Below are positions 11,702-64,000 of a stretch of DNA of 64,000 bases, in pieces. Location of the stretch: assembly GCA_030430025.1 (NCBI GenBank), contig JAUIGR010000011.1:1-64000 (forward strand), in the 5' to 3' direction. The notes below the pieces were generated by a model. That model saw only the letters and a program-made list of their open reading frames with translations, was not told the DNA's origin and made no database searches. Each line of letters opens with the position of its first letter. The stretch's first letter is position 1. Origin of the DNA: Gammaproteobacteria bacterium. GTDB lineage: Bacteria; Pseudomonadota; Gammaproteobacteria; Xanthomonadales; Marinicellaceae. A program made the translations under genes and the position numbers.

Positions 11702-12952
11702 CTACCAACTCACGGCTTCTCTATGCACAGGCATCGTCATACATCGACAACCACCTCCTCCCCGGGACAATTCCGAACCATCCATTGCCACTGCTACTTT
11801 TTGATCCGATTGTAACTTCACGTTCTCATTTATGATATCTTGAGCATCAATGATATCAAAACCAGCTTGGTTTAAGGCCTCTAATGTCGCATGGTTATGC
11901 TTGTAACCAATAATTTGTCCTGGAGCAAAAGTAAAAAAATTGGCACCGCTGGTCCATTGTTCACGTTCTTGATAAAATTCATTACTACCACCACAGTTAA
12001 CAAAGTTCATTTCTAGTCCAAAGTGTCTCAACGCTTTAGGTAAGCCAGAATATTCAGTAATTTTTTTGATTTGTCCCTGGCTACAAGACATATGAAACGC
12101 CTTACACTTACTCGGTCCAGTAATCAATGGAGGAAAATTCATCACCGTTTCTTGATCTAACAATGTGAAAATCATATCCAAATGTATAGTCGCTCGGATT
12201 TTTGGTAAATCAACCACCACAATATCTAATTTATCCATACCATGTGATAATTTTCGAGCAATGCGGTCAATTGCCCTGGCTGAAGTACGCTCCGAGAATC
12301 CTATCACTAATAAATCATCTCGAAAAACCAATAAATCACCGCCTTCAATGGTCACTTCTTCTTTTTGTCTTTTAGTACCGTCAAAATGAAATCCTTGGCC
12401 TGAGAGTAAATGGTGATTATTGAAAATGGCTTTAAGCAACAAAGCCTCCGTTAACCTGACCCGATGAGCCATCGAACCGATAACTGCTTTGTCATATACA
12501 CACATCACCGCATCACGTGTAAAAAAGGCATTAGGCAAAGGTGGTATGGCGTGACGGGAAGGACTGAGAAACTTTTCTAATGTATCCTTTTTCAACAACG
12601 TACCTTCAAAGAACTGACGAGAGAGTTGTGCTGCCGGCAACACCATCAAATCATCAACCAATTCGTTATGGCCATGCAGTGCACAAACTTCTTGCAACAA
12701 ATCCAGCTTGACCTTTTCATCAGTGAGCACATCTGTCAGCAGCGATGCAAACTCCAAAACATGATCAGCCACTTTATGCAAAACACCTGTTAATTGTCGA
12801 TGTTCCTCAAGGGCCAAATCTAATGTAAGGATATCATCATAAAGTACTTCAGCCGCCGTTTCAGGTGTCATATTCTCCATTTCAGGTCCTGGCTCATGAA
12901 TGATGACTGTGTTGAGTTTACCAATCTCAGAATAGTTAGAAATTTTGCCCAT
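11702..12952 (-). CDS. arcA: Arginine deiminase
   Basis: 416 residues, the usual ADI length. Converts arginine to citrulline and ammonia. The family signatures are all present: 'IHEPGPEMENMTPE' at the N-terminus, 'FFTRDAVMC', 'EGGDLLVF', 'HLDMIFTLLD' and the C-terminal nucleophile loop 'GGGGCRCMTMP', where C404 is the expected catalytic cysteine. No ornithine carbamoyltransferase, carbamate kinase or antiporter gene is nearby. Instead it begins 5 nt after paaE on the same strand, which places it in the phenylacetate operon. The placement is unusual; the protein itself looks intact. Confidence 0.93.
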   Translation of the reverse strand: MGKISNYSEIGKLNTVIIHEPGPEMENMTPETAAEVLYDDILTLDLALEEHRQLTGVLHKVADHVLEFASLLTDVLTDEKVKLDLLQEVCALHGHNELVDDLMVLPAAQLSRQFFEGTLLKKDTLEKFLSPSRHAIPPLPNAFFTRDAVMCVYDKAVIGSMAHRVRLTEALLLKAIFNNHHLLSGQGFHFDGTKRQKEEVTIEGGDLLVFRDDLLVIGFSERTSARAIDRIARKLSHGMDKLDIVVVDLPKIRATIHLDMIFTLLDQETVMNFPPLITGPSKCKAFHMSCSQGQIKKITEYSGLPKALRHFGLEMNFVNCGGSNEFYQEREQWTSGANFFTFAPGQIIGYKHNHATLEALNQAGFDIIDAQDIINENVKLQSDQKVAVAMDGSELSRGGGGCRCMTMPVHREAVSW

Positions 12953-12957
12953 CTGCG

Positions 12958-14013
12958 TTACTCATCAAAAGAGATGTGAATTTTACTGGAACGAACCACA
13001 GATTGACAGCCTAGGATATAGCCTGTCTCAAGCTCCCAATCCTCCAATGAATAATTATTAATCATTTCTACATCACCTTCTATGAGCCTACATCGACAAG
13101 TAGCACAAACCCCAGCTTTACATGAGTACGGCAAGCTCACACCAGCCATCTCTGCGGATTCAAGCAAAGTTACTTGTTCACCTGCTTTGATACCAAAATG
13201 ATGATTGGCACCATCAATAGTAACCGTAATACCAACATCTTCCTTAATGGTTTTATCAGCTAAAGATATTTCCTGTCCTTCTGACAAGAATCGTTCATTA
13301 TGAATTTTTCGCGTTGGAACACCCAAAATATCCAAAGAACGACAAACACTATCAATCATTTCTCCAGGACCACAAACAAAGTAATCAGAAACTTCAATTT
13401 GATCGAGTATATGTTCTTTAATAAACACTACTTTACCATGATCTATACGACCATGATTGAAAGGCATGTCAACTTTCTGTTGAGACAAGAAATAATGGAT
13501 ACTGAATCTATCTTGATAACGATCTTTCAATGCTGCTATTTCATCATGCAACAAAATATCTGTCGAATTCGAATTACCATAGAACAAAAGAAATTGAGCA
13601 TCCTCTGTTTGCTCTAATGTCGCATAGATCATTGCCATCACGGGAGTAATACCTGATCCTGCCGCAAAAGCCGCGTAACATCGCCCATTTTCTGGTTGTA
13701 ACGAAAAGTGACCTGATGGTGATAAAACATCGACTTGATCACCCACATGAAAATTAGTTTGTGCTGGTTCAGAAAATCGACCATTTTTGACAGCTTTAAT
13801 GAGCACTTTTACCTCATCTGTTTTGCAACTCGATGAACAAATAGAGTAACTGCGTCTCAACTCTTCTCCCTGAGACATGACTCGGAAAGTCATATGCTGA
13901 CCAGGCAAGAAAATAAACTCATTTTTTAATTCAGGAGGAATGGCTAAAGTCCAAATAACCGCATTAGGTTGTTTTTCTATGGCTGTTATAATTAATTTAT
14001 GAAACTGGTGCAT
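12958..14013 (-). CDS. paaE: Phenylacetyl-CoA 1,2-epoxidase reductase subunit PaaE
   Basis: Flavoprotein reductase that passes electrons from NADPH to the PaaAC diiron centre. Domains in order: FAD-binding barrel with 'RRSYSICSS', NAD(P)-binding domain with 'FAAGSGITPVMAM' and a C-terminal plant-type [2Fe-2S] ferredoxin whose cluster cysteines are C304, C309, C312 and C342 when counted from an ATG six codons upstream (14031). The start at 14013 (MHQFHKL) is preferred because homologues begin there. It overlaps the end of paaD by 17 nt. Intact. Confidence 0.92.
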   Translation of the reverse strand: MHQFHKLIITAIEKQPNAVIWTLAIPPELKNEFIFLPGQHMTFRVMSQGEELRRSYSICSSSCKTDEVKVLIKAVKNGRFSEPAQTNFHVGDQVDVLSPSGHFSLQPENGRCYAAFAAGSGITPVMAMIYATLEQTEDAQFLLFYGNSNSTDILLHDEIAALKDRYQDRFSIHYFLSQQKVDMPFNHGRIDHGKVVFIKEHILDQIEVSDYFVCGPGEMIDSVCRSLDILGVPTRKIHNERFLSEGQEISLADKTIKEDVGITVTIDGANHHFGIKAGEQVTLLESAEMAGVSLPYSCKAGVCATCRCRLIEGDVEMINNYSLEDWELETGYILGCQSVVRSSKIHISFDE

Positions 14014-14470
14014 GACATTTAAAATAATCAAATGGTTCTAAGCAATCCTGGCATCGATACAGCGATTTACAAGCAGTTGAGCCATATTGACTGATCAGAG
14101 TGGTATGAGTTGAATGACACAAAGGGCAAACGACATCCTGGTTTTTAGCAACAGGCGGCGCAATACCAAAAGCCTGCATTTTTTGGCGACCTGGTTCGCT
14201 AATCATATCGGTTGACCAAACAGGTGTTCGGCTGACATGAATAATGAACTGACTGATATGATGTTGCTCCATCACTGCTTTGATGTCATCTTGGATCGCG
14301 TACATAGCAGGACAACCTGAATAGGTTGGAATGATATCTATCCTCACCTGACCAGCCTTGATCGTCACGGATTGTAAAATACCCAGTTCTTTGATGCTAA
14401 TAACAGGTATTTCCGGATCTTTAACTGCCTCCAACCAAGATTCAACTTGTGTAGCACTTACTGGCATCAC
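13997..14470 (-). CDS. paaD: Phenylacetyl-CoA epoxidase maturation protein PaaD
   Basis: 157 residues of the MIP18/DUF59 family. The N-terminal half has 'DPEIPVISIKELGI' and 'TYSGCPAM', and the C-terminal half has a zinc-ribbon-like set of cysteines (CPLCHST ... C ... CQDC ... CH). In the paa system PaaD is needed for assembly or function of the iron centres of the epoxidase complex. It overlaps paaC by 4 nt and paaE by 17 nt, so translation is coupled. Confidence 0.92.
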   Translation of the reverse strand: MMPVSATQVESWLEAVKDPEIPVISIKELGILQSVTIKAGQVRIDIIPTYSGCPAMYAIQDDIKAVMEQHHISQFIIHVSRTPVWSTDMISEPGRQKMQAFGIAPPVAKNQDVVCPLCHSTHTTLISQYGSTACKSLYRCQDCLEPFDYFKCHAPVS

Positions 14471-15222
14471 CAGTCACAGCCAGGATATGCTCTTTGTAAG
14501 AATTGCATTTCTGCCAACATATAGCCCAAGTGTTCGGAGTGCTCTCCCTGCAAACCACCAGTAGCTACCCAGCCTGATTCAGGCAAAATCAACTGACACT
14601 GTATTAAATGTGACTCTACCATACTATGCCATTGCTCCCTTATACTTTCCATGTCAGCAGCAATGCCTTGTTTTTGTAGATATATCATGCCTTCATCACT
14701 TTCAAATAATTCGGAAGTATAAAACCATAGCTCATCAAGGGCTTTTTGCATTTTTTGCTGTGCTTCTTCAGTACTCATACACAAACGTTTCAACCATTCA
14801 TGACTGCGCTCATGGTGATACTGTACTTCTGTTAATGCTTTTTTAGCAACATCGGCCAAAGGCTGATAACAACTTTCAGATAACGCGCGGTACAATAGTA
14901 AACTATAACTGTCAACAAAATACTGTTTCACCATAGTGTATGCAAAATCGCCACGAGGTAATTCGGTCAGTAATGGGTTGCGAAAACCATCAACATCACG
15001 TAAAAAAGCCAAATCATCAACACTGACATCAGTTTCTGATATTTCTACAGCCAACTGATAAAACAAATTGGCATGTCCCATGATATCTAAAGAGATATTA
15101 GTTAATGCCACATCTTCTTCCAAATAAGGCCCATGTCCACACCATTCCGCTAACCGCTGGCTCATAGTCAGACTGGTGTCTGCTAATCTGAGAAAATAAT
15201 GATATAAATATTCTGCTTCCAT
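14467..15222 (-). CDS. paaC: Phenylacetyl-CoA 1,2-epoxidase structural subunit PaaC
   Basis: 251 residues with a ferritin-like four-helix fold. Motifs such as 'LADTSLTMSQRLAEWCGHGP', 'NISLDIMGHANLFYQLA' and 'YHHERSHEWLKRL' match PaaC. It is a non-catalytic paralogue of PaaA that holds the A-C heterodimer together. It shares its start with the last base of paaB and overlaps paaD by 4 nt. Confidence 0.94.
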   Translation of the reverse strand: MEAEYLYHYFLRLADTSLTMSQRLAEWCGHGPYLEEDVALTNISLDIMGHANLFYQLAVEISETDVSVDDLAFLRDVDGFRNPLLTELPRGDFAYTMVKQYFVDSYSLLLYRALSESCYQPLADVAKKALTEVQYHHERSHEWLKRLCMSTEEAQQKMQKALDELWFYTSELFESDEGMIYLQKQGIAADMESIREQWHSMVESHLIQCQLILPESGWVATGGLQGEHSEHLGYMLAEMQFLQRAYPGCDW

Positions 15223-15503
15223 TACATGTTTTCCACTTCTTTATTTAGAGGATAAAAGGTTGGATGTCTGTAGACTTTATCTTCTGCAGGGTCAAACCAT
15301 TGATGTTCCTGTGCAGGATTAGATGCTGTAATGTACTTCGCCTCAACGACCCAAATACTCACTCCTTCCTGTCGACGCGTATAGACATCACGAGCATTCA
15401 TAAGCGCCATTTTTTCATCTGATGCATGCAGTGACCCTACATGGCGATGATTCAAGCCTGCCTTGGAACGGATAAACACCTCATATAATTTACTTGACAT
15501 CAA
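15222..15503 (-). CDS. paaB: Phenylacetyl-CoA 1,2-epoxidase subunit PaaB
   Basis: 93 residues, close to the usual ~95. The sequence '[21 protein letters not shown]' and '[20 protein letters not shown]' is diagnostic of PaaB, the small subunit that bridges PaaAC dimers into the large epoxidase complex. It overlaps paaA by 4 nt. Confidence 0.94.
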
Positions 15504-16480
15504 GCAGCCTCCTCTTTTATTTTTTGTTGATTCGCTTGGTAAACTTCAACGGCATCCCTTACCCATGCACCTTCTTCATGTGCTTTAATTCGAGCTTGCA
15601 TCCGTTGATGATTACAAGGACCATGACCTTTAATGACATTCATAAACTCATCCCAATTAATCTCTCCATGATCATAACCTTGTTTGTCATCGTTCCATTT
15701 CAGCTCAGGATCAGGAATAGTTAAACCCAAGTGTTCCGCTTGTGGTACTGTAGCATCAATGAACTTTTGCCGTAAATCATCATTACTGAATCGTTTAATT
15801 TTCCATTTCATAGACTGTTCTGAATGCTTAGAATCTTTGTCACTTGGCCCAAACATCATCAAAGAAGGCCACCAAAACCGATTCAATGCTTTTTGTGCCA
15901 TTATTTTTTGCGCTTCACTGCCTCGAGCTAAAACTGTCATAATTTCATAACCCTGACGCTGATGGAAACTTTCTTCTTTACATATCCTCACCATAGAGCG
16001 TGCATAAGGTCCATAAGAAGCACGGCAAAGTGGCACTTGATTCATGATAGCCGCGCCATCAACCAGCCAGCCAATAGCACCAATATCTGCCCATGAAGTT
16101 GTAGGATAATTAAAAATGCTGGAATATTTTGCTTGGCCAGTGAGTAATTCAGTAGTTAACTGTTCTCTACTGACACCCAATGTTTCGGTCGCTGAATAAA
16201 TGTACAAACCATGGCCAGCTTCATCCTGTACTTTAGCCAACAAAATCATTTTACGTTTAAGTGTTGGCGCTCTGGTAATCCAGTTACCTTCGGGTAATTG
16301 TCCCACAATTTCTGAATGGGCATGTTGCGACATTTGTCGAATCAGTGTTTTTCTATATGCTTCAGGCATCCAGTCTCGAGGTTCAATCTTAATTTCTGCA
16401 TCTATTTTTTTCTGAAATGCATCCAAAAGCTCCTGCGGTTCTTCACTGCCCTTGGCATCAGTGAGTCCTTGAGAATACAT
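15500..16480 (-). CDS. paaA: Phenylacetyl-CoA 1,2-epoxidase catalytic subunit PaaA
   Basis: 326 residues, ferritin-like diiron monooxygenase. The iron ligands lie in '[15 protein letters not shown]' and '[15 protein letters not shown]', both intact. With PaaB, C and E it epoxidises the ring of phenylacetyl-CoA. It follows the thiolase gene by 12 nt, and an AGGA site lies before the ATG at 16480. Confidence 0.95.
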
Positions 16481-16492
16481 GGCATTGTCCTC

Positions 16493-17698
16493 CTAAACTT
16501 TTTCTAATAACATAGCCATGCCCTGGCCAACGCCAACACACATGGTACAAAGAGCCATTTTACCATTTTGACGATGTAATTGCTTAATCGCAGTCAAAAC
16601 CAGGCGGGCTCCTGACATACCCAGTGGATGCCCCAATGCGATGGCGCCACCATTAGGATTTACTCTGCAATCATCATCAGCGATACCTAACTGCCTTAAA
16701 ACTGCCAAAGCTTGTGAAGCAAAAGCTTCATTCAATTCAATCACCTCCAAATCATCTATGGTTTTAGTATATCGATTCAGTAATTTTTGTGTTGCAGGAA
16801 CTGGTCCAATACCCATCACTTCAGGTTCAACGCCAGCGACACTGGCTCCAACGAATCTTGCTAATGGCTGTAGATCATATTGTTTTACCGCAACATCAGA
16901 AGCGATGATCATCGCACACGCTCCATCATTAACACCTGAAGCATTACCTGCAGTGACTGTACCATTGGCTCTGAATGGCGTTGCCAACTTTGACAACGTT
17001 TCTAATTGAGTGTCGCCTCGTGGATGCTCATCTTTATTGACAATAATGGAATCGCCTTTGCGCTGTGGTAATATGATCGGAACAATTTCTTCATCAAATA
17101 CACCGTCAACCTGAGCTTGCGCGCATTTTTGTTGGCTTCGATAAGCAAACAAGTCTTGATCTTCCCGTGATATATGAAAACGTTCAGCTACGTTTTCTCC
17201 CGTTTCAGGCATGGACTCTGTTCCATATTGTTGTTGAAGTTTAGGATTAATAAATCGCCAGCCAATGGTGGTGTCATAAATTTCAGCATGGCGTGAAAAA
17301 GCCACAGTTGCTTTTGGCATCACAAAAGGTGCGCGTGACATCGACTCAACACCACCAGCAATCATTACATCCGCATCTCCGAAAGCAATCGTTCTGGCTG
17401 CTGTCGCTATGGCATCCATACCAGATGCACATAAGCGATTAACTGTCATACCGGCCACTGAAGTAGGCAAGCCAGCCAATAATGCAGACATTTTAGCTAC
17501 ATTACGATTATCTTCACCTGCTTGATTAGCACAACCTGCAATGACATCTTGGATAACCTCATGGGGCAAATCAGGATTACGACGCAACAATTCACCAATT
17601 GTCGTAGCCAACATATCATCAGGACGAACGGAAGATAAAACACCGCCAAAACGACCAATCGGTGTACGAACACCATCACAAATATAAACAGCTCTCAC
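16493..17698 (-). CDS. paaJ: 3-oxoadipyl-CoA / 3-oxo-5,6-dehydrosuberyl-CoA thiolase
   Basis: 401 residues of the PaaJ/PcaF thiolase type. The acyl-accepting cysteine is C90 ('NRLCASGMDA'), the catalytic histidine lies in 'GGAIALGHPLG' and the second cysteine in 'TMCVGVGQG'. The opening 'VYICDGVRTPIGRFGG' is typical of PaaJ. It carries out the thiolytic steps of phenylacetate catabolism, giving acetyl-CoA and succinyl-CoA. It overlaps paaH by 4 nt. Confidence 0.92.
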   Translation of the reverse strand: MRAVYICDGVRTPIGRFGGVLSSVRPDDMLATTIGELLRRNPDLPHEVIQDVIAGCANQAGEDNRNVAKMSALLAGLPTSVAGMTVNRLCASGMDAIATAARTIAFGDADVMIAGGVESMSRAPFVMPKATVAFSRHAEIYDTTIGWRFINPKLQQQYGTESMPETGENVAERFHISREDQDLFAYRSQQKCAQAQVDGVFDEEIVPIILPQRKGDSIIVNKDEHPRGDTQLETLSKLATPFRANGTVTAGNASGVNDGACAMIIASDVAVKQYDLQPLARFVGASVAGVEPEVMGIGPVPATQKLLNRYTKTIDDLEVIELNEAFASQALAVLRQLGIADDDCRVNPNGGAIALGHPLGMSGARLVLTAIKQLHRQNGKMALCTMCVGVGQGMAMLLEKV

Positions 17699-19191
17699 GA
17701 TTTCACCTGTATCTTATTTTGTATATAGGGTGAACGTCGATAGCGATCGTCACCAAACCACCCTTGCAAATTAGCCAAACCATCATTCACCCACTCCCAG
17801 CCCAAAGCATCTGCAAATGCCAGTAATCCCTTAGGGTAATTGACACCATGACACATGGCTAAATCGACATCGCTGGCAGAACATACACCATTGAATACAG
17901 CATCGGCAGCTTCATTAATCAGCATTACCAATGTTCGCATGACCACCATACCAGGCTGATCATCAGATAACAACACAGATTTACCTAGCAACTGAAACAA
18001 ACCAATAACAGCTTGTTTATCAACTACTGTCACATCACTGCTAAAAGTAAGATTTACTGCTTCAGCCAGCTCATAATCAAAAGACCAGTCAATCAATGCC
18101 ACTGATAATCCTGACTCAGAAAAATAAGACTGTAAATCGTCAGCTTTAGCTCCTTCGGTTAACAACACTAAACAGTTACCTATTTGTATATCATCCCCTA
18201 AGCGAACTTCAACAGCACTGTCCTCAATACCTTTAAATAATGGCTCCAGCACCCCTAAGTTAGTTGGCAAAGATATTTGTTCAGGAGCTTGGCATGCATG
18301 TTCATAAAGTGATTCCGCAACTGGTAATTCCAGATCATAACGATAAAAACCACGCCCTGACTTTTTCCCTAATGTTCCAGCATGAACCATTTCAGCTTGA
18401 ATCAAGGAAGGTTTGAAACGAGGATCATTATACATGGCTTGATAAACGGACTGGCTGACACTGTAATTGACATCGATACCTATCAAATCCATCAAGGTAA
18501 ATGGCCCCATTTTGAATCCAGCAACTTTAGTCATTACAGCATCAAAAAAATGAGGTGAAGCCAACTGCTCTTGCATCATTTTTAATGGCTCACCATAAAA
18601 CGAACGCGCTACACGATTAACAATAAACCCAGGGGTAGAACTAGCTACTACTGGCACCTTACCCCAAGATTGACATAAATTCTGTCCCATTTTAATGTAC
18701 TTTGGGTCTGTTAATAATCCACTAACCACTTCAACCAGCTTCATTACTGGAGCAGGATTAAAGAAATGCAACCCGAAAAGCCTTTCTGGCGTTTTCAAAT
18801 GTGCTGCGATGGCTGTAATCGACAAAGAAGAAGTATTGGATGTCAATAATGTATTACTTGAACATATTCTTTCAAGCTTATGAAATAGTTGTCTTTTAAT
18901 ATCCAAATTCTCAACAATAGCCTCTATGACTAAATCAGCATCAGCCAAAGCTTCTAGTTCATTAACTACTTCAATTTTTTCAATTAAGTCGATTTTTTCC
19001 TGAGCAGCGATTTTTCCACGTAATACTCGTTTATCAAGCCGATCTGACATCATGACCAATGCGTTTTTTGCAGCTGATTCATCGACATCAAACAGTTTAA
19101 CTAGATGTCCATGAGCAGCTGCCACCTCGCAAATACCGATACCCATGGTACCTGCCCCAATGACAGCAATTTGATTGATTTGACCCAACAT
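17695..19191 (-). CDS. paaH: 3-hydroxyadipyl-CoA dehydrogenase PaaH
   Basis: About 498 residues from the ATG at 19191 (MLGQINQIAVIGAGTMG); an in-frame longer start at 19257 would overlap paaG and is not favoured. NAD-binding motif 'VIGAGTMGIGICEVAAAHG', catalytic region 'LLTSNTSSLSITAIA' and 'LFGLHFFNPAPVMKLVEVV', followed by two 3HCDH C-terminal domains (second one ending in 'CHGVNYPKGLLAFADALG'). It oxidises 3-hydroxyadipyl-CoA in the lower phenylacetate pathway. One base separates it from the paaG stop. Confidence 0.92.
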   Translation of the reverse strand: MLGQINQIAVIGAGTMGIGICEVAAAHGHLVKLFDVDESAAKNALVMMSDRLDKRVLRGKIAAQEKIDLIEKIEVVNELEALADADLVIEAIVENLDIKRQLFHKLERICSSNTLLTSNTSSLSITAIAAHLKTPERLFGLHFFNPAPVMKLVEVVSGLLTDPKYIKMGQNLCQSWGKVPVVASSTPGFIVNRVARSFYGEPLKMMQEQLASPHFFDAVMTKVAGFKMGPFTLMDLIGIDVNYSVSQSVYQAMYNDPRFKPSLIQAEMVHAGTLGKKSGRGFYRYDLELPVAESLYEHACQAPEQISLPTNLGVLEPLFKGIEDSAVEVRLGDDIQIGNCLVLLTEGAKADDLQSYFSESGLSVALIDWSFDYELAEAVNLTFSSDVTVVDKQAVIGLFQLLGKSVLLSDDQPGMVVMRTLVMLINEAADAVFNGVCSASDVDLAMCHGVNYPKGLLAFADALGWEWVNDGLANLQGWFGDDRYRRSPYIQNKIQVKS

Positions 19192-19192
19192 T

Positions 19193-19990
19193 TTAATGAC
19201 CTTTGAACTCTGGTTTTCTCTTTTCCAAAAATGCCGATACACCTTCAGAGAAGTCATGACTTAAACCACATACGCGCTGTACATCACGTTCCCTATCTAA
19301 GTGAACACCATAATCATTTCTAAATGACTCATCCATAATGTTTTTGATAAACGAAAGTGCTCGAGTAGGTCGATTGGCTAAAGTCGCTACCATATCATTA
19401 ACCACTGAATTAAAATCCTCATCTGCGACAGCCTGGTAGATCATTCCCCATGATTCAGCTTGCTCGGCAGTGATGGGAGTTCCAAGCATGGTAATTGCTT
19501 TGGCCCTGGCCAAACCAATGAGTTTAGGAAGCAGCCATGTTCCATTACAATCAGGAATTAAACCGATAGAAGAAAAAGCTTGGATAAATTGAGCCGACTG
19601 TTTGGCAATCACAACATCACAATTCAAAGCAATATTAGCGCCAGCACCAGCAGCCACTCCATTAACAGCACATACCACAGGTGCGTGTATACTTTTCAAT
19701 ATGCGCAAGTTTTTATTATAACCCTGCTCCAATTTGTCACCCAAATCCATAGATTCATGGCCTGTTCGAGTTCCCAGGTCTTGACCAGCGCAAAATCCTC
19801 GGCCTTCACCTGTTAACAAAACACAACGAATATCAGACTGATCAGCAATGTGATTGAGGACCAAAAACAACTCATCATGCATCAAATCATTGAAAGCATT
19901 AAGCTTCTCAGGTCTACACAATACCACACTAGCCACATGATCTTTAATACTGAATTTCAGTGTTTGCAAACCGTCCCAAGAATCAGTCAT
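19193..19990 (-). CDS. paaG: 1,2-epoxyphenylacetyl-CoA isomerase PaaG
   Basis: 265 residues, crotonase fold. The oxyanion-hole sequence 'GRGFCAGQDLG' and 'VNGVAAGAGANIALNCD' are typical of PaaG, which turns the ring epoxide into the oxepin form. It is the first gene of the operon: a TATAAT box lies upstream and AAGGGG is 5 nt before the ATG. A second crotonase (PaaF) is not present in the window. Confidence 0.92.
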   Translation of the reverse strand: MTDSWDGLQTLKFSIKDHVASVVLCRPEKLNAFNDLMHDELFLVLNHIADQSDIRCVLLTGEGRGFCAGQDLGTRTGHESMDLGDKLEQGYNKNLRILKSIHAPVVCAVNGVAAGAGANIALNCDVVIAKQSAQFIQAFSSIGLIPDCNGTWLLPKLIGLARAKAITMLGTPITAEQAESWGMIYQAVADEDFNSVVNDMVATLANRPTRALSFIKNIMDESFRNDYGVHLDRERDVQRVCGLSHDFSEGVSAFLEKRKPEFKGH

Positions 19991-32425: not shown

Positions 32426-32777
32426 TGGTGGAGACGGCGGGAATCGAACCCGCGTCCGCAAATCCTCTGCTTGAGGCTCTACATGCTTAGATTTGGTTTT
32501 TATCTTATGCTAATAACTCCACCAATCGGGATTTATAAGCACCAGCTTGGAATTAATTTAGCCGGCTGCATCCAAACAGTACAGACAGCGATCTTGCTGG
32601 TTATGACGGACATTCCAAACACGCAAGAAAGCTTGGGTGCCCGTTAGCAATTAAGCTGCTAAAGCGTAGTTATCGTCGTTTGCAACTATAACTTTGACAC
32701 AGATATTTACGAGGTTTATGTCTCCCTCGGCATGCACCTACAAGTTTCGCAACCCACGTCGAAGCCAGGTCGTCCCC
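32426..32777 (-). ncRNA. ssrA: Transfer-messenger RNA (tmRNA)
   Basis: One-piece tmRNA of about 352 nt. The 5' end GGGGACGACC and 3' end CGTCTCCACCA (on the minus strand) pair into a seven-base acceptor stem, and the T-arm reads CGGGTTCGATTCCCG. The tag frame lies at 32651-32683 on the minus strand: resume codon GCA, then AAC GAC GAT AAC TAC GCT TTA GCA GCT TAA, giving the tag ANDDNYALAA. It rescues stalled ribosomes with SmpB. The CCA end is encoded. Confidence 0.97.
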
Positions 32778-58656: not shown

Positions 58657-61600
58657 TTACGTCAAACATCGATCCACTTTATCAATATCAGAATCAGCCA
58701 TAATCCTTGCTAGGTATTTTTGATAATACAAGTTCATTTCAGGAAATAGTATTCCAGCTTTATCACTCAATATTGTTGATGTTTTATCAGAATTTACTTT
58801 TGGGACAATCCAATTTTTTGGTAGATCTTGCTTGGTTTTTAGCAATTCCGATATCTCCTGAGAATCAAAATCAATGAATGATACTATAGGTAATAATTGA
58901 CTTGCTGAGAATTTTTTAGCTTCATTTAGCCACTCTATTAGCGACACCTTTTTATACTTCTTGTCATTATTTTCAAATATTGCATTTAATGAGTCACTAT
59001 TACTATTAATTAGATGAAATACATTGTTATCAAGATTTTCATCAAGTGACAATTGCACTAATGAGTCAGCCACATAGTCAACCGGTGTGAAAGGCATCTT
59101 GAGCTCATCAAAATACATACCCATTTCATGACAACTTACTAATAGTTTAGTTAACCACTGACTATTTGGCATTTTTCCTGATTGTTTGTCACCAGTCACT
59201 AAACCAATACGATAAATTTGCGTTGGAACACCTATATCCATTGCATTTTTTATGACTTTTTCTGCAACCCATTTAGATCCACTGTACCCAGATGAATAGT
59301 CATGTAGCTCGTTATCAATACAATCAACTTCATATCTTAGTGATTCGCACTTTGGACTAAAAACGCCTATAGTCGAAACATAGATTATTTTTTTGAGTTT
59401 GTGGGTAGTGGCCAATTTGATGACTTCCTTGGCAGACCCGACATTAGGTTTTTCTAAATATTCATACGAAGAGTGATGATCCATTTTCGCTGCCACATGA
59501 TATATATGGCTCACTTTATTCGCTAACATGTCATAAATATACTCATTAATTTTTAAATTCTCACACGAAAGATCACCTAATACGACATTGATACGCTCTT
59601 TAAATTTGTTCTTATATAAACCATATGCTTTTAGATTATTGATGATTCTCGATCTCCCCTCTTCATCACTATTAGATCTTGTCAAACAATAAATATTGGC
59701 ATCCGTTTCTTCCAATAGTTTTAACAATACATAACCCCCAAGGAATCCAGTAGCACCGGTGAGAAATATATTAGTTGGTTTGGCAGGCAATTTATTGTTT
59801 AAGATGCTCATATCATCGATATCAATATCAATGTCTAACTCAGATAAATTGATTTGTTTTTCATATTTAATACTACCTCCTTTAGTCTCAAGGATATGAT
59901 CAGCTAACTTTTCTATAGTTGGATTACTAAACAGCCCTTTGATAGATAAAGAGTAGCCATATTCATTATTGATTTCACTGACAATTTTTACAGCATTCAA
60001 ACTGTGGCCACCTATGTGAAATAAATTTGCATCAACACTTATTTCATCTATCTCAAGAATTTTTTTCCATATCAAATATATATTATTTTCTATTTCATTC
60101 TTTGGTTTCTTTAATTGATTATGATTAACTAATCTATGATCCGGATCAGGTAGCTTTGAAAGATCAACTTTTCCGTTGATTGTCATAGGAAATTTTTCAA
60201 CTGTAACCCAAATAGATGGCACCATATATAATGGTAGATTTTTAGATAAATATGAACCAAGTTCATTAAAATTACATTCATGACTTTGAGGACATACGTA
60301 TGCCACGAGTTGACTTACTCCTTGAATTTCTTTACCTATTATTAAACTATCACGTACATTCTTGTGTTTGTTTAAGTGAAACCTGATCTCTTCGGGCTCT
60401 ATCCTATATCCTCTGATTTTAAGTTGGTTATCTATTCGATTAATGTATTCAATATCACCAGTCGGCATCCACCTTCCATAATCTCCTGTTTTATAAATCA
60501 ATTCATCATCACTAAAAGGGCTTTTTTTAAACTTTTCTTTAGTTAACTTCTCATTATTTAGATACCCTTTGGCCAAACCAATTCCTCCAATCCACATTTC
60601 CCCTATAACACTAATTGGAACAAGTTTCATAAATTCATCCAATATGTATGTTTTTACATTATTAATTGGCCTGCCAATAGGTATACTTTCAGCATATACA
60701 AGACTTTCTTTAACTTGATAAATGGTTGAACCGACACTTGCTTCTGTAAGTCCATATCCATTAAATAGAGTTGTATATTTAGAAACTTTTTGCCCCAAGT
60801 CGTAATTTAACTTCTCACCTACACAAAGTATTTTCTGTATTTTAGGTAACACAGTTATAGGGATATCTTTAAGATACGATGGAGTGAGCTGAACCAAGGA
60901 TATTTGATTTAACTCAATAAATTCAACAAAATTAGACATATCATATTTTTCTTTTTCAGGAATAATATGAATTGTGGAACCTGACAACAGCGCTGGAAAC
61001 AACTCCGATAAAGAAGCATCAAATGAGCAAGAAGCAAACTGTAAAACATTGTCATTAACTGTTACACTCAATTCTCTTATTAATGAGAATACCATATTAA
61101 TGAACCCATTATGCTTCACCACAACTCCTTTCGGATAACCGGTTGTTCCTGAAGTATAAATTATATAAGCAACACTATCAGGCAATAATGACCCGCTTAT
61201 ATTTGAAGTTGGGTGATTTTTACTTTGTTCAATAACTTGATTCAAATTAATGTGGGGAACATCCTTAAATGCTTTCTGAACATTCAATTCAATTTGGTCA
61301 TGAATTAAGTGTTTAATATCTGTATTTTCAAGAATATATCGGATTCTAACTAAAGAAGTTTCAGGATCTATGGGAAGATAAACACAACCCGATTTCAAGA
61401 TACCTAACATTGCTATAATCCATCTTTCAGTTCTTTGGACTAAAATGCATATGATATCACCTGTTTTTATCTTTATTTCATCACGGAGATAATGTGCAAA
61501 TTGATTTGCTAGAGAGTTTAGATCCCCATACGTTATTGCTTCGGTTCTATATCTAACAGCAATCTTTTTCGGACACTTTTCTACCTGTTTTTCAAATACT

Positions 61601-64000
61601 TTATCAATTGTATGATTACAGAACTCTTTTCTAACTTTACCTTGAGAAAGTCGCAGAATTAAACTCTTTTGATTGTCAGTTAAGGCATCTATATCTTTAA
61701 TATCTGAAAAAGGATACTCTAAGATATTCACTAGTATGTTGATATAGCTTTCGATGATATTATCAATATCTATATTATCTAAAATATTGGTAGAGCGAGA
61801 GATATTTACGTGGAACATATCACCATAATCTATAACTTCTAAGCTCATATCAACTTGACCAGTCATTTGAGGTATATCATAACGCTCAACTTTCATCTTG
61901 TAAGTATCTGATATATAATCCAATACATTGTCATTCATATCTAAGTAATTAAATACTATCCCACTTAGAGAATGATGATCTTCACTGTCCATTGCTATAT
62001 TTTTAGCTATTTCTGAATATGGATATTCTCTGTGTTTTAATGTTTCGAACACCACCTTTCTTGCTTGCTTAAAAAAATCAATAACTCTGGTATTTGGATG
62101 GACAGAGTATAATATTGGTAAAAGATTTACGTAATATCCAATTGATTCCTTATATTTATCGATACTACTTCTATTCGACACTGCTAAATCAATAGAAATA
62201 TTTTGACCACCACCGTATTTGTATAATAAAACAGCAAGTGAAGACATCATAATAACAGATTCTTTTACTCCATATTTTGCAGAAAATCTTTTCACTTTAT
62301 GACAAACTGACTCGTCTAACTCAATGCGTTTATTGACAAATTCAACTTTGTCAAAGCCCACAATACTTTTCTTTTTTTTACAAAAAAGTCGATTTATCTT
62401 GTCTTTAGTTTTTTCCCTCCAATACTTTTGTAGTTTTGTTCCCTTTTCCGAATTTAACATACTATTCTGATAACGAATAAATTCAAAATATTCGCTATCT
62501 GTTTTTTTGTTTTTTATTGGCTTATTATGATTAAAAGAAAAATAATGAAAAAATAAATCCTTTAATATAATTTTCATACTATCTGCATCACAAATAATAT
62601 GATGGGCCACTAGCATTATGATGTGCTCATCAAGAAAACGATTAGAATAAACATTCATCCGTAAAAGTGGCCCCTTACTTAAAATGAAAGGACTTTTTGA
62701 ATCCTCAACTATTTTTGAATAAATGCCAGTATTATCATAATCAGATACGTCAATTGAGTTATATTCAAAACTTAGTTTTTCATTAATAAGTTGTTGAACC
62801 GGTCCATTTAATCCATCTTTATATACTGTTCTCAAAATAGGTCTATCACGAAGAATAAAGCTTAATGATTTTTTGAGTACTTTATGGTCAATTTTTTCTT
62901 TAACTTTGAATGATGATATGACATTATACGCTGAGCTCTTAGGTTCAAGCTTATGCAAAAACCATAACCCTTTCTGACCTTCAGACAATGAAAATTCATC
63001 CCCAACATTTATAACAGCATTTCTATTTTGTTTCGCAGAGTTTTTTAGTTCTGATTCATCTTTCACTACCGCATTACACACTCTGTAATCAGCAATATAA
63101 TTTGCCAAATCGCCAATCGTATCAAACTCCCATAATAAATCAGGATTCAGTTCCATATTCTCTTTTTCAGAAATCCTTGCAATAATTTCGATACTGTTAA
63201 TAGAGTCAATTCCATACGCACTAAGTTTTTTTTGAGTATTGATGTTTTTTATCTCAATCTGCGTGATTTCAGCAATAATTCGAATAATATCTTGCTCAAT
63301 TTGCTGAACGATTGTTTTATCAATGTCATTGCTGCCAATCCTTGTCACTCTATTATCAACTTCCTGGTCTAACTCTCGAACTATTTTATTGTGAGAAACA
63401 ACATCAGGATTATGATCCTCACCAAACATATTTTTTTCAATTTTCCCAATACTATCACTATAGGTGTTAACTCTGAATGCAATATCTTCAGTATTTCTCC
63501 ACAACTGATGAACCGTTTGTAATTTCAGAGCATCCAAAAGGATACAATCATATTTGGCTTTGGCCCATAATGAAGCACTGCGATATTCAATTGAACCTGT
63601 CTTTTGATAAAAATAATTAGATGCTGCTTGAAGAAATGTATAACAAACTAAATTACCAATATGCATCTTAGCCGTATGCTCATGATCTGCCTGACCACCA
63701 AAGACTGTTGCATTATCCTCCCAAAATGAATAAACATGATCTGAATCATTTTTTAAACAAGCTGCTAAATCAGGTGCTTCATAATGTTTTATTAAGAAAT
63801 CTTTAAATATTTCATCTTCAGCCTGTTTAAGAGCCCCTAAAAACATAGTCAAAGCTTCAGTAGGCCCTTCAAATATACGCATCAATCTAGTATCTCTAAA
63901 TATTTGTGGCACCTCACTGGTTTCAATGTAACCTCGTCCACCTAATAATTGCATAAGATGATCTGTCGCACGATAAAAAGATTCTGGCCCAATGACCTTA
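58657..64000 (-). CDS. Hybrid acyl-CoA dehydrogenase / NRPS with terminal reductase (partial, 5' end beyond window)
   Basis: The frame runs to the window edge, so the protein is longer. Numbering from the first ATG at 63954 (15 more codons, KVIGPESFYRATDHL, lie before it): the C-terminal part of an acyl-CoA dehydrogenase domain (1-195, 'RGYIETSEVPQIFRDTRLMR'), a carrier domain (215-290, Ser251 in 'AYGIDSINSIEI'), a condensation domain (about 318-740; core HHIICDA at 451-457), an adenylation domain (about 775-1270; A3 'YTSGTTGYPKG', A5 'NGYGLTEAS', A7 'YKTGDYG', A8 'IDNQLKIRGYRIEPEE'), a second carrier (Ser1318 in GGHSL) and a thioester reductase (about 1395-1765; 'FLTGATGFLGGYV', 'YSGSKWVAEK'). 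It should make an N-acyl amino aldehyde or alcohol. Confidence 0.9.
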   Translation of the reverse strand, partial: KVIGPESFYRATDHLMQLLGGRGYIETSEVPQIFRDTRLMRIFEGPTEALTMFLGALKQAEDEIFKDFLIKHYEAPDLAACLKNDSDHVYSFWEDNATVFGGQADHEHTAKMHIGNLVCYTFLQAASNYFYQKTGSIEYRSASLWAKAKYDCILLDALKLQTVHQLWRNTEDIAFRVNTYSDSIGKIEKNMFGEDHNPDVVSHNKIVRELDQEVDNRVTRIGSNDIDKTIVQQIEQDIIRIIAEITQIEIKNINTQKKLSAYGIDSINSIEIIARISEKENMELNPDLLWEFDTIGDLANYIADYRVCNAVVKDESELKNSAKQNRNAVINVGDEFSLSEGQKGLWFLHKLEPKSSAYNVISSFKVKEKIDHKVLKKSLSFILRDRPILRTVYKDGLNGPVQQLINEKLSFEYNSIDVSDYDNTGIYSKIVEDSKSPFILSKGPLLRMNVYSNRFLDEHIIMLVAHHIICDADSMKIILKDLFFHYFSFNHNKPIKNKKTDSEYFEFIRYQNSMLNSEKGTKLQKYWREKTKDKINRLFCKKKKSIVGFDKVEFVNKRIELDESVCHKVKRFSAKYGVKESVIMMSSLAVLLYKYGGGQNISIDLAVSNRSSIDKYKESIGYYVNLLPILYSVHPNTRVIDFFKQARKVVFETLKHREYPYSEIAKNIAMDSEDHHSLSGIVFNYLDMNDNVLDYISDTYKMKVERYDIPQMTGQVDMSLEVIDYGDMFHVNISRSTNILDNIDIDNIIESYINILVNILEYPFSDIKDIDALTDNQKSLILRLSQGKVRKEFCNHTIDKVFEKQVEKCPKKIAVRYRTEAITYGDLNSLANQFAHYLRDEIKIKTGDIICILVQRTERWIIAMLGILKSGCVYLPIDPETSLVRIRYILENTDIKHLIHDQIELNVQKAFKDVPHINLNQVIEQSKNHPTSNISGSLLPDSVAYIIYTSGTTGYPKGVVVKHNGFINMVFSLIRELSVTVNDNVLQFASCSFDASLSELFPALLSGSTIHIIPEKEKYDMSNFVEFIELNQISLVQLTPSYLKDIPITVLPKIQKILCVGEKLNYDLGQKVSKYTTLFNGYGLTEASVGSTIYQVKESLVYAESIPIGRPINNVKTYILDEFMKLVPISVIGEMWIGGIGLAKGYLNNEKLTKEKFKKSPFSDDELIYKTGDYGRWMPTGDIEYINRIDNQLKIRGYRIEPEEIRFHLNKHKNVRDSLIIGKEIQGVSQLVAYVCPQSHECNFNELGSYLSKNLPLYMVPSIWVTVEKFPMTINGKVDLSKLPDPDHRLVNHNQLKKPKNEIENNIYLIWKKILEIDEISVDANLFHIGGHSLNAVKIVSEINNEYGYSLSIKGLFSNPTIEKLADHILETKGGSIKYEKQINLSELDIDIDIDDMSILNNKLPAKPTNIFLTGATGFLGGYVLLKLLEETDANIYCLTRSNSDEEGRSRIINNLKAYGLYKNKFKERINVVLGDLSCENLKINEYIYDMLANKVSHIYHVAAKMDHHSSYEYLEKPNVGSAKEVIKLATTHKLKKIIYVSTIGVFSPKCESLRYEVDCIDNELHDYSSGYSGSKWVAEKVIKNAMDIGVPTQIYRIGLVTGDKQSGKMPNSQWLTKLLVSCHEMGMYFDELKMPFTPVDYVADSLVQLSLDENLDNNVFHLINSNSDSLNAIFENNDKKYKKVSLIEWLNEAKKFSASQLLPIVSFIDFDSQEISELLKTKQDLPKNWIVPKVNSDKTSTILSDKAGILFPEMNLYYQKYLARIMADSDIDKVDRCLT

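Follow-up and report, generated by a model that had tools for sequence, protein, structure and literature searches.

Organization of the putative synthetase gene

At the right end of the window (the whole stretch of 64,000 nucleotides that was analysed) a minus-strand open reading frame of 1780 aa (58657..63999) runs off the window edge. Its own contig, C58, extends to 71677, i.e. 7.7 kb beyond the window, and reading past the edge recovers the missing start: the complete gene (58657-66777) is a single open frame encoding 2706 aa. An ATG at 66777 is preceded just upstream by AAGGGGGAG, a good ribosome-binding site, and for this reason it was chosen over a TTG ten codons further upstream, which is the first start codon of the open frame. 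Neither a frameshift nor a stop was found at 63000-64000, where a separate start might have divided the protein, and the frame is unbroken up to the ATG. The 124 bases before the gene start contain one site resembling a terminator and one resembling a promoter, but over the whole region such sites are not clearly more frequent than in shuffled sequences.

Pfam matches and motifs give the full protein the domain order FAAL–ACAD–ACP–C–A–PCP–R, that is, acyl-AMP ligase, acyl-CoA dehydrogenase, acyl carrier, condensation, adenylation, peptidyl carrier and thioester reductase domains. Pfam applied to the window part alone finds the tail of Acyl-CoA_dh_1, followed by one carrier, Condensation, AMP-binding together with its C-terminal part, another carrier and finally NAD_binding_4. 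The initial annotation, made from this part, had read an ACAD-carrier-C-A-carrier-reductase series in one polypeptide, which is borne out by the Pfam order, by scores over NCBIfam cut-offs and by the continuous frame. It had also guessed that an acyl-AMP ligase would occupy the unseen start, and the extension along contig C58 does reveal such a domain (AMP-binding plus AMP-dom_DIP2-like, with PDB relatives) together with the complete ACAD. The conserved carrier serines and the Tyr and Lys of the R domain are present on direct reading. In residues of the full protein, the Pfam spans are 621-980 for the three ACAD domains, about 1157-1228 for the first carrier, 1260-1707 for Condensation, 1728-2203 for AMP-binding and its C-terminal part, 2236-2295 for the second carrier and 2339-2572 for NAD_binding_4. 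The features are as follows, all in window numbering.

58657..64000, minus: part of the synthetase gene within the window; the 5' end of the complete gene is at 66777 on contig C58
65038-66777 (contig, wholly outside the window), minus: FAAL, residues 1-580; Pfam AMP-binding and AMP-dom_DIP2-like; PDB 7r7g, 3kxw
63358-64977 (contig; 63358..64000 within the window, the larger part outside), minus: ACAD with C-terminal helical extension, residues 601-1140; Pfam N, M and C domains, ACAD9 and VLCAD matches
63073..63330, minus: acyl carrier domain with GIDS, serine 1192; PP-binding (two stretches), ACP_SdgA_C below cut-off, motif
61648..63015, minus: condensation domain, HHIICDA at 1392-1398; Pfam Condensation 2.5e-70, PDB 7kw2 1.2e-23
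60163..61596, minus: amino-acid adenylation domain with the usual motifs; TIGR01733 374 bits against a cut-off of 317; LgrA, TycA and GrsA structures
59878..60105, minus: peptidyl carrier domain with GGHSL; PP-binding, best stretch 2236-2295, motif
58660..59790, minus: terminal thioester reductase with GATGFLG, VSTIG and YSGSK; TIGR01746 over cut-off; MxaA R, mycobacterial Nrp R and AusA R; motifs

The catalytic motifs of the FAAL, ACAD, carrier, C, A and R domains are assigned here the functions customary for them.

An assembly artefact, in which a chimeric contig joins a loading unit to an NRPS module, is extremely improbable. The genome is a draft of 114 contigs and the two halves of the gene differ in G+C content (0.357 and 0.312), as such a chimera might; yet the 8.1-kb frame is continuous across the junction, third-position G+C is alike in both halves and the C domain lies at a normal distance behind the carrier.

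The loading half

Behind the N-terminal AMP-binding domain, AMP-dom_DIP2-like is matched over its cut-off at residues 453-563. Fifteen PDB sequences match the domain at E values up to 1e-60, including 7r7e/f/g, 3kxw, FadD23, FadD28 and FadD32. The best are 7r7g (E 1e-168, residues 8-563, listed as 'Polyketide synthase') and 3kxw (E 2.2e-146, residues 7-564), followed by FadD23, FadD32 and other AMP ligases; the remaining matches are one fatty acyl-adenylate ligase and several entries that carry the name 'Acyl-CoA synthase'. We take 7r7e/f/g, 3kxw and the 'Acyl-CoA synthase' entries to be FAAL-type structures. With AMP ligases as its nearest solved relatives, the domain is predicted to be a FAAL rather than a CoA ligase. 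The adenylation loops of the whole protein read YTSGSTGDPKG and YTSGTTGYPKG.

The solved relatives of the ACAD domain are ACAD9 and VLCAD, and its candidate catalytic glutamate, Glu970 in EGPTE, is kept in 81 of 82 aligned rows. The model of a relative's ACAD (locus L027, 46% identical; mean pLDDT 92.8) aligns with VLCAD in Foldseek over nearly its whole length (TM 0.82 by query, 527 columns). Judged from this model, the helical stretch that follows the ACAD appears to resemble the C-terminal domain of the very-long-chain enzymes, an extension that would be compatible with a long acyl substrate. In the VIA alignment, ordinary-length ACADs come out on top (about residues 6-382), and long matches to VLCAD and ACAD9 are absent among the 50 rows listed, whereas they are present in Foldseek. 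VIA further aligns the ACAD core with PigA, AnaB and ColB1, flavoproteins whose substrates are carrier-bound. The acyl carrier motif GIDS follows at 1189, and FAAL, ACAD (with Glu970) and carrier thus stand in one frame in the order expected of a loading unit.

The domain has a long branch and no supported neighbour in the ACAD tree; its end branch is the second longest of 82 rows (1.35, against a median of 0.2). This tree does not include locus L035, one of the 79 described below, whose ACAD is divided between two frames. The branch length would suit a domain that no longer desaturates, either having become structural or persisting as a remnant of a FAAL-ACAD-ACP unit in an ancestor, and so would the unusual Glu736, found in 1 of 82 rows where 63 carry Pro. 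In that case the product would be a saturated N-acyl amino aldehyde or alcohol. The retention of the catalytic Glu970 and of the most conserved motifs argues against this possibility, which is considered unlikely.

The NRPS module and terminal reductase

In the C-A-PCP-R half, the A domain and the thioester reductase score over curated NCBIfam cut-offs (TIGR01746, 239.2 bits against 213.35 for the latter), and Condensation and PP-binding are detected in Pfam. Condensation domains usually carry the motif HHxxxDG; here it is HHIICDA, i.e. HHxxxDA, and the domain is divergent, with about 25% identity to its best matches in the plasmid collection. Its solved relative is a PCP-C didomain (PDB 7kw2).

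The A domain shows FDAS, NGYGLTE, YKTGD, KIRGYRIE and NGK on direct reading, and its solved relatives are linear gramicidin synthase (LgrA), gramicidin synthetase 1 (GrsA) and TycA. The selectivity residues, read by hand at the presumed GrsA positions as D-A-S-Q-L-V-G-V-G-K, gave no confident match to a known code. The PCP motif GGHSL is at 2256. In the R domain, aligned with MxaA R, the Rossmann glycines (GATGFLG, 2341) are followed by VSTIG and by the Tyr-xxx-Lys pair in YSGSK (2498); solved relatives are MxaA R (2.3e-44), mycobacterial Nrp R and AusA R. Taken together, domains and motifs support the initial proposal of a desaturase-type ACAD, the addition of one amino acid and a reductive release.

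With the 1780 aa within the window as query, the protein falls well short of two characterized families, the AusA equivalog (NF047350, 619.8 bits against 2500) and the myxochelin MxcG equivalog (NF038078, 514.2 bits against 2300).

Occurrence of the FAAL–ACAD front end

A scan of species genomes confirmed 115 related stretches. The best 80 were kept, corresponding to 79 distinct loci, and 35 weaker stretches were left out; the counts that follow refer to these best 80 of 115. Of the 79 loci, 46 are cyanobacterial, 19 pseudomonadotal and 14 from other groups. Domains were called with single-sequence queries from our own protein plus one ketosynthase from L024, and contig ends may cut frames; carriers are for these reasons probably undercounted.

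FAAL and ACAD share a frame in 65 of the 79 loci (34 of the 65 being cyanobacterial) and are separate in 14, suggesting that the two domains act as a unit. A carrier was detected behind the ACAD in 38 of the 65 fused frames. These fusions, from cyanobacteria and other groups (L027-L105), share the in-frame order FAAL-ACAD with our protein, with ACAD identities that reach 48% in the best segment. They differ in what follows: a ketosynthase occurs somewhere in 40 of the 65 fused loci and a C domain somewhere in 14, whereas within the fused frames themselves three contain a ketosynthase, two an R domain (L049 and L054) and none of the 65 a C domain. One of the 14 unfused loci, L097 from Sorangium, lacks FAAL in the frame that joins ACAD and C.

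The two frames with R, in Planktothrix paucivesiculata (L054) and in cyanobacterium FACHB-502 (L049), resemble our protein in joining the FAAL-ACAD front to R in one chain and differ in having no C-A-PCP module. Our own queries detect a carrier in L054 and none in L049. The product of such an enzyme should be a 2-enal rather than an amino aldehyde. With R at the end of the FAAL-ACAD frame, L054:8165-13180 and L049:7855-12975 are the nearest simpler relatives seen.

By identity, the best matches to the ACAD unit are cyanobacterial and burkholderial. In Gloeocapsa (plasmid collection) a FAAL-ACAD unit opens a polyketide cluster, with a TonB receptor alongside. In two cyanobacterial clusters (L025:6440-16563 and L058:3155-11545) FAAL-ACAD is accompanied by a carrier, a C-T protein and another ACAD encoded separately, the latter suggesting two desaturation steps. 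The Burkholderia loci L082, L086-L089, L093 and L102, as well as L026:7568-19151, have a FAAL-ACAD gene, with a carrier match in some; that of L026 has as neighbours a pair of KAS III-like genes, another ligase gene and a gene for an MBL-fold protein, forming an unfamiliar lipid cluster.

Genomic context and origin

The FAAL-ACAD unit was found in 1 of 33 genomes of the family, our own counted, and the whole ACAD-ACP stretch was matched in our own genome only among 61 searched. In a full-length search of 369 genomes of the class, with two candidates scored per genome, the matches listed were our own and one other, at 30% over residues 1262-2602. ACAD-profile searches (up to three candidates scored per genome) listed matches in 2 of 369 and 2 of 398 genomes, our own being one in each case; the frames in the two other genomes are 1292 and 1784 aa long. 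The gene has a G+C content of 0.333, against 0.384 in the window to its left and 0.397 in the right flank, and it contains the only condensation-domain match in the genome.

No biosynthetic, exporter or resistance gene lies beside the synthetase among the genes listed from 54302 to 71677, in agreement with the initial remark that no transporter is in view; the SNF2 helicase named as its neighbour is indeed encoded downstream. On the upstream side are genes encoding a sulfur transferase and an MBL-fold protein, as well as a divergent ArsR-type regulator together with genes of the cytochrome bd type (the subunit I match is below cut-off). Since it is restricted to 1 of 33 genomes, is lower in G+C, harbors the genome's only detected C domain and has no biosynthetic neighbours, the gene was probably acquired by horizontal transfer and probably works alone. 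An empty site was sought by comparing the window genes from 43146 on and five right-flank genes with the other genomes of the genus. The SNF2 gene, present in 18 of 18 genus genomes (our own counted), is the only gene shared in the flanks of 14 of the 17 others, some of them short contigs, and hence there is no conserved site for comparison.

A single PPTase-superfamily protein (203 aa) is encoded in the genome and is a candidate to prime the carriers. Some A domains need an MbtH protein; no match to one was found in the genome.

Some other features of the region were recorded. The sulfur transferase and MBL-fold genes (contig C58 66902-68175; L003:12902-14175) are two adjacent genes whose products NCBIfam unites in a single protein (Blh), and the ArsR gene beside this pair matches BigR below its cut-off. 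Genes in the window at 11702-19990 resemble those for phenylacetate degradation and fatty-acid oxidation, as judged from the first residues of their translations. The fatty-acid genes of the window matched 13 records, none of them from A. baumannii although the collection contains whole chromosomes of that species, and Acinetobacter was accordingly rejected as the host. Ranked by coverage times identity, the top matches of the genome's partial 16S are Legionella adelaidensis and Methylomagnum, at 84.7%; some partial matches come to about 87%, and a single record at 99% or more matches over 37 bases. A tmRNA gene (32426-32777, minus) is the only Rfam match of the window at the gathering threshold.

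Comparison with known systems

The closest published pathway appears to be that of rotihibin (rth) in Streptomyces scabies. According to the available text of its description, the FAAL RthH, the ACADs RthI and RthJ and the ACP RthK are proposed to supply a 2-decenoyl starter, and a reductase domain in the last NRPS module accounts for the asparaginol end (PMC8552735). The logic of a FAAL, ACAD and ACP starter passed to an NRPS with a terminal reductase is thus shared. As far as that text goes, rotihibin differs in using separate proteins, a pentamodular NRPS with a unimodular partner, and MbtH and transporter genes (PMC8552735), whereas our gene encodes one chain with one module. Without separate FAAL, ACAD and ACP genes or a multimodular NRPS ending in R, our gene would work by analogy like the rotihibin system without being a member of it.

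Daptomycin-group lipopeptides are released by a thioesterase, and the systems of this group have many modules and, except for a FAAL-ACAD fusion in enduracidin, separate proteins, unlike our gene. Their initiation is similar: in friulimicin (LipA/LipB), taromycin, laspartomycin and enduracidin (Orf45), FAAL, ACAD and ACP provide an unsaturated acyl starter to a C domain, as outlined in the accessible part of a 2021 review (PMC9113097). For pathways with an unsaturated lipid, ACAD-family genes are described there as located between those of the FAAL and the ACP, the role of LipB as shown by disruption and Orf45 as the fused FAAL-ACAD; the same part states that no mechanistic studies of lipopeptide-pathway ACADs had been reported (PMC9113097). 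The present synthetase would offer an in-cis test of whether such ACADs act on carrier-bound acyl chains.

Other systems share single aspects. Mutanoclumpin (mcg) synthesis in Streptococcus mutans starts with loading by a FAAL and ends with aldehyde release by R, and it differs in being a PKS-NRPS hybrid of several modules; an ACAD is not mentioned in the available text (PMC12403116). The aureusimine synthetase AusA is the best NCBIfam match to the NRPS part and also ends in R, the score lying far below cut-off as given above; to our knowledge, AusA involves no lipid loading.

The one-chain, one-module layout looks rare. The parts are no oddity: FAAL-ACAD fusions recur, and the rotihibin cluster combines the same kinds of enzyme. 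A one-chain FAAL–ACAD–ACP–C–A–PCP–R protein was not named in the literature titles and abstract beginnings searched, which mostly do not cover subscription journals. Because the same logic has been published, as far as the available text shows, for rotihibin over separate proteins (PMC8552735), novelty rests on the layout: what looks new is a rotihibin-like logic in one module and one chain, built on a recurrent FAAL-ACAD front end.

Predicted activity and product

Our preferred reading, with a probability of roughly 70%, is that the gene encodes a self-contained, one-polypeptide synthetase of a lipo-amino-aldehyde (or alcohol), probably acquired by horizontal transfer. As predicted from sequence, the FAAL would adenylate a free fatty acid and load it on the adjacent ACP. 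The ACAD would remove two hydrogens from the acyl-ACP, most likely at C2-C3, passing the electrons to the flavoprotein chain of the cell. The C domain would transfer the enoyl group to an amino acid loaded on the PCP by the A domain, and R, with NAD(P)H as cofactor, would set free the N-(2-enoyl) amino aldehyde, which might be further reduced to the alcohol. On the best reading, then, the product would be this aldehyde or the corresponding amino alcohol, fatty acid and amino acid being left general and the position of the double bond being predicted likewise. Several points weigh against this proposal: the divergent C domain with HHxxxDA in place of HHxxxDG, the lack of an MbtH match in the genome whereas the rotihibin cluster has such a gene, the lack of an exporter or resistance gene alongside, A-domain selectivity residues that fit no code known to us, and an ACAD fold modelled on a 46%-identical relative.

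Everything chemically required to make a lipidated, reduced amino acid seems to be contained in one chain of 2706 residues, so that expression of this gene alone could be enough to identify the product directly. If correctly predicted, the N-(2-enoyl) amino aldehyde would be a small lipid carrying both a Michael acceptor and an aldehyde group. A bolder version, which we regard as rather unlikely, is that a complete pathway carried on one gene moved between phyla as a unit, or that a C-A-PCP module slipped between carrier and R of a cyanobacterial-type FAAL-ACAD-T-R enzyme, and that the resulting N-(2-enoyl) amino aldehydes, reactive at two sites, form a new class, plausibly of protease inhibitors.

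The aldehyde may instead be a mere intermediate that cyclises or is modified further by the products of genes at other loci, in the manner of pyrazine, fragin or mutanoclumpin chemistry. Aldehydes released by R domains commonly react further, to judge from the accessible portions of three reports (PMC7586950, PMC12403116, PMC11659414); in these, a minimal NRPS with R yields an aldehyde (PMC7586950), and it is suggested that reduction of such an aldehyde to the alcohol might rely on an enzyme from outside the cluster (PMC11659414). In the present case an N-acyl cap should block simple amine-aldehyde dimerisation to pyrazines. On the other side, tailoring genes are absent among the genes listed beside the synthetase. 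This alternative is rather unlikely, and direct formation of the lipo-amino-aldehyde or alcohol remains the preferred reading.

The recurrence of ligase, carrier, NRPS and R in isonitrile pathways raises the alternative of a copper- or metal-scavenging lipopeptide of that kind, which is very improbable. Mycobacterial Nrp R ranks among the best R matches, and the first-listed plasmid match of the C domain is a Halotia NRPS encoded behind a ligase, a TauD-type dioxygenase, an FcoT thioesterase and an ACP. Neither a dioxygenase nor an FcoT thioesterase is found among the genes listed from 54302 to 71677, so that an nrp-type cluster is not recognizable there; identity to the Halotia C domain is only 25%, and own-protein queries find no R in the Halotia NRPS. 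The mycobacterial nrp (Rv0101) system resembles ours in pairing a ligase (FadD10) with an NRPS, in the available text of its description (PMC9600254), and differs in its separate genes and isonitrile chemistry. The Halotia branconii cluster, located on a plasmid (L141:1858-15365), comprises a TonB receptor, ligase, TauD-type dioxygenase, FcoT-family thioesterase, ACP and NRPS genes. This arrangement presumably resembles that of isonitrile lipopeptide clusters; we know of no ACAD in the isonitrile lipopeptide pathway, nor of a fused one in the mycobacterial nrp system.
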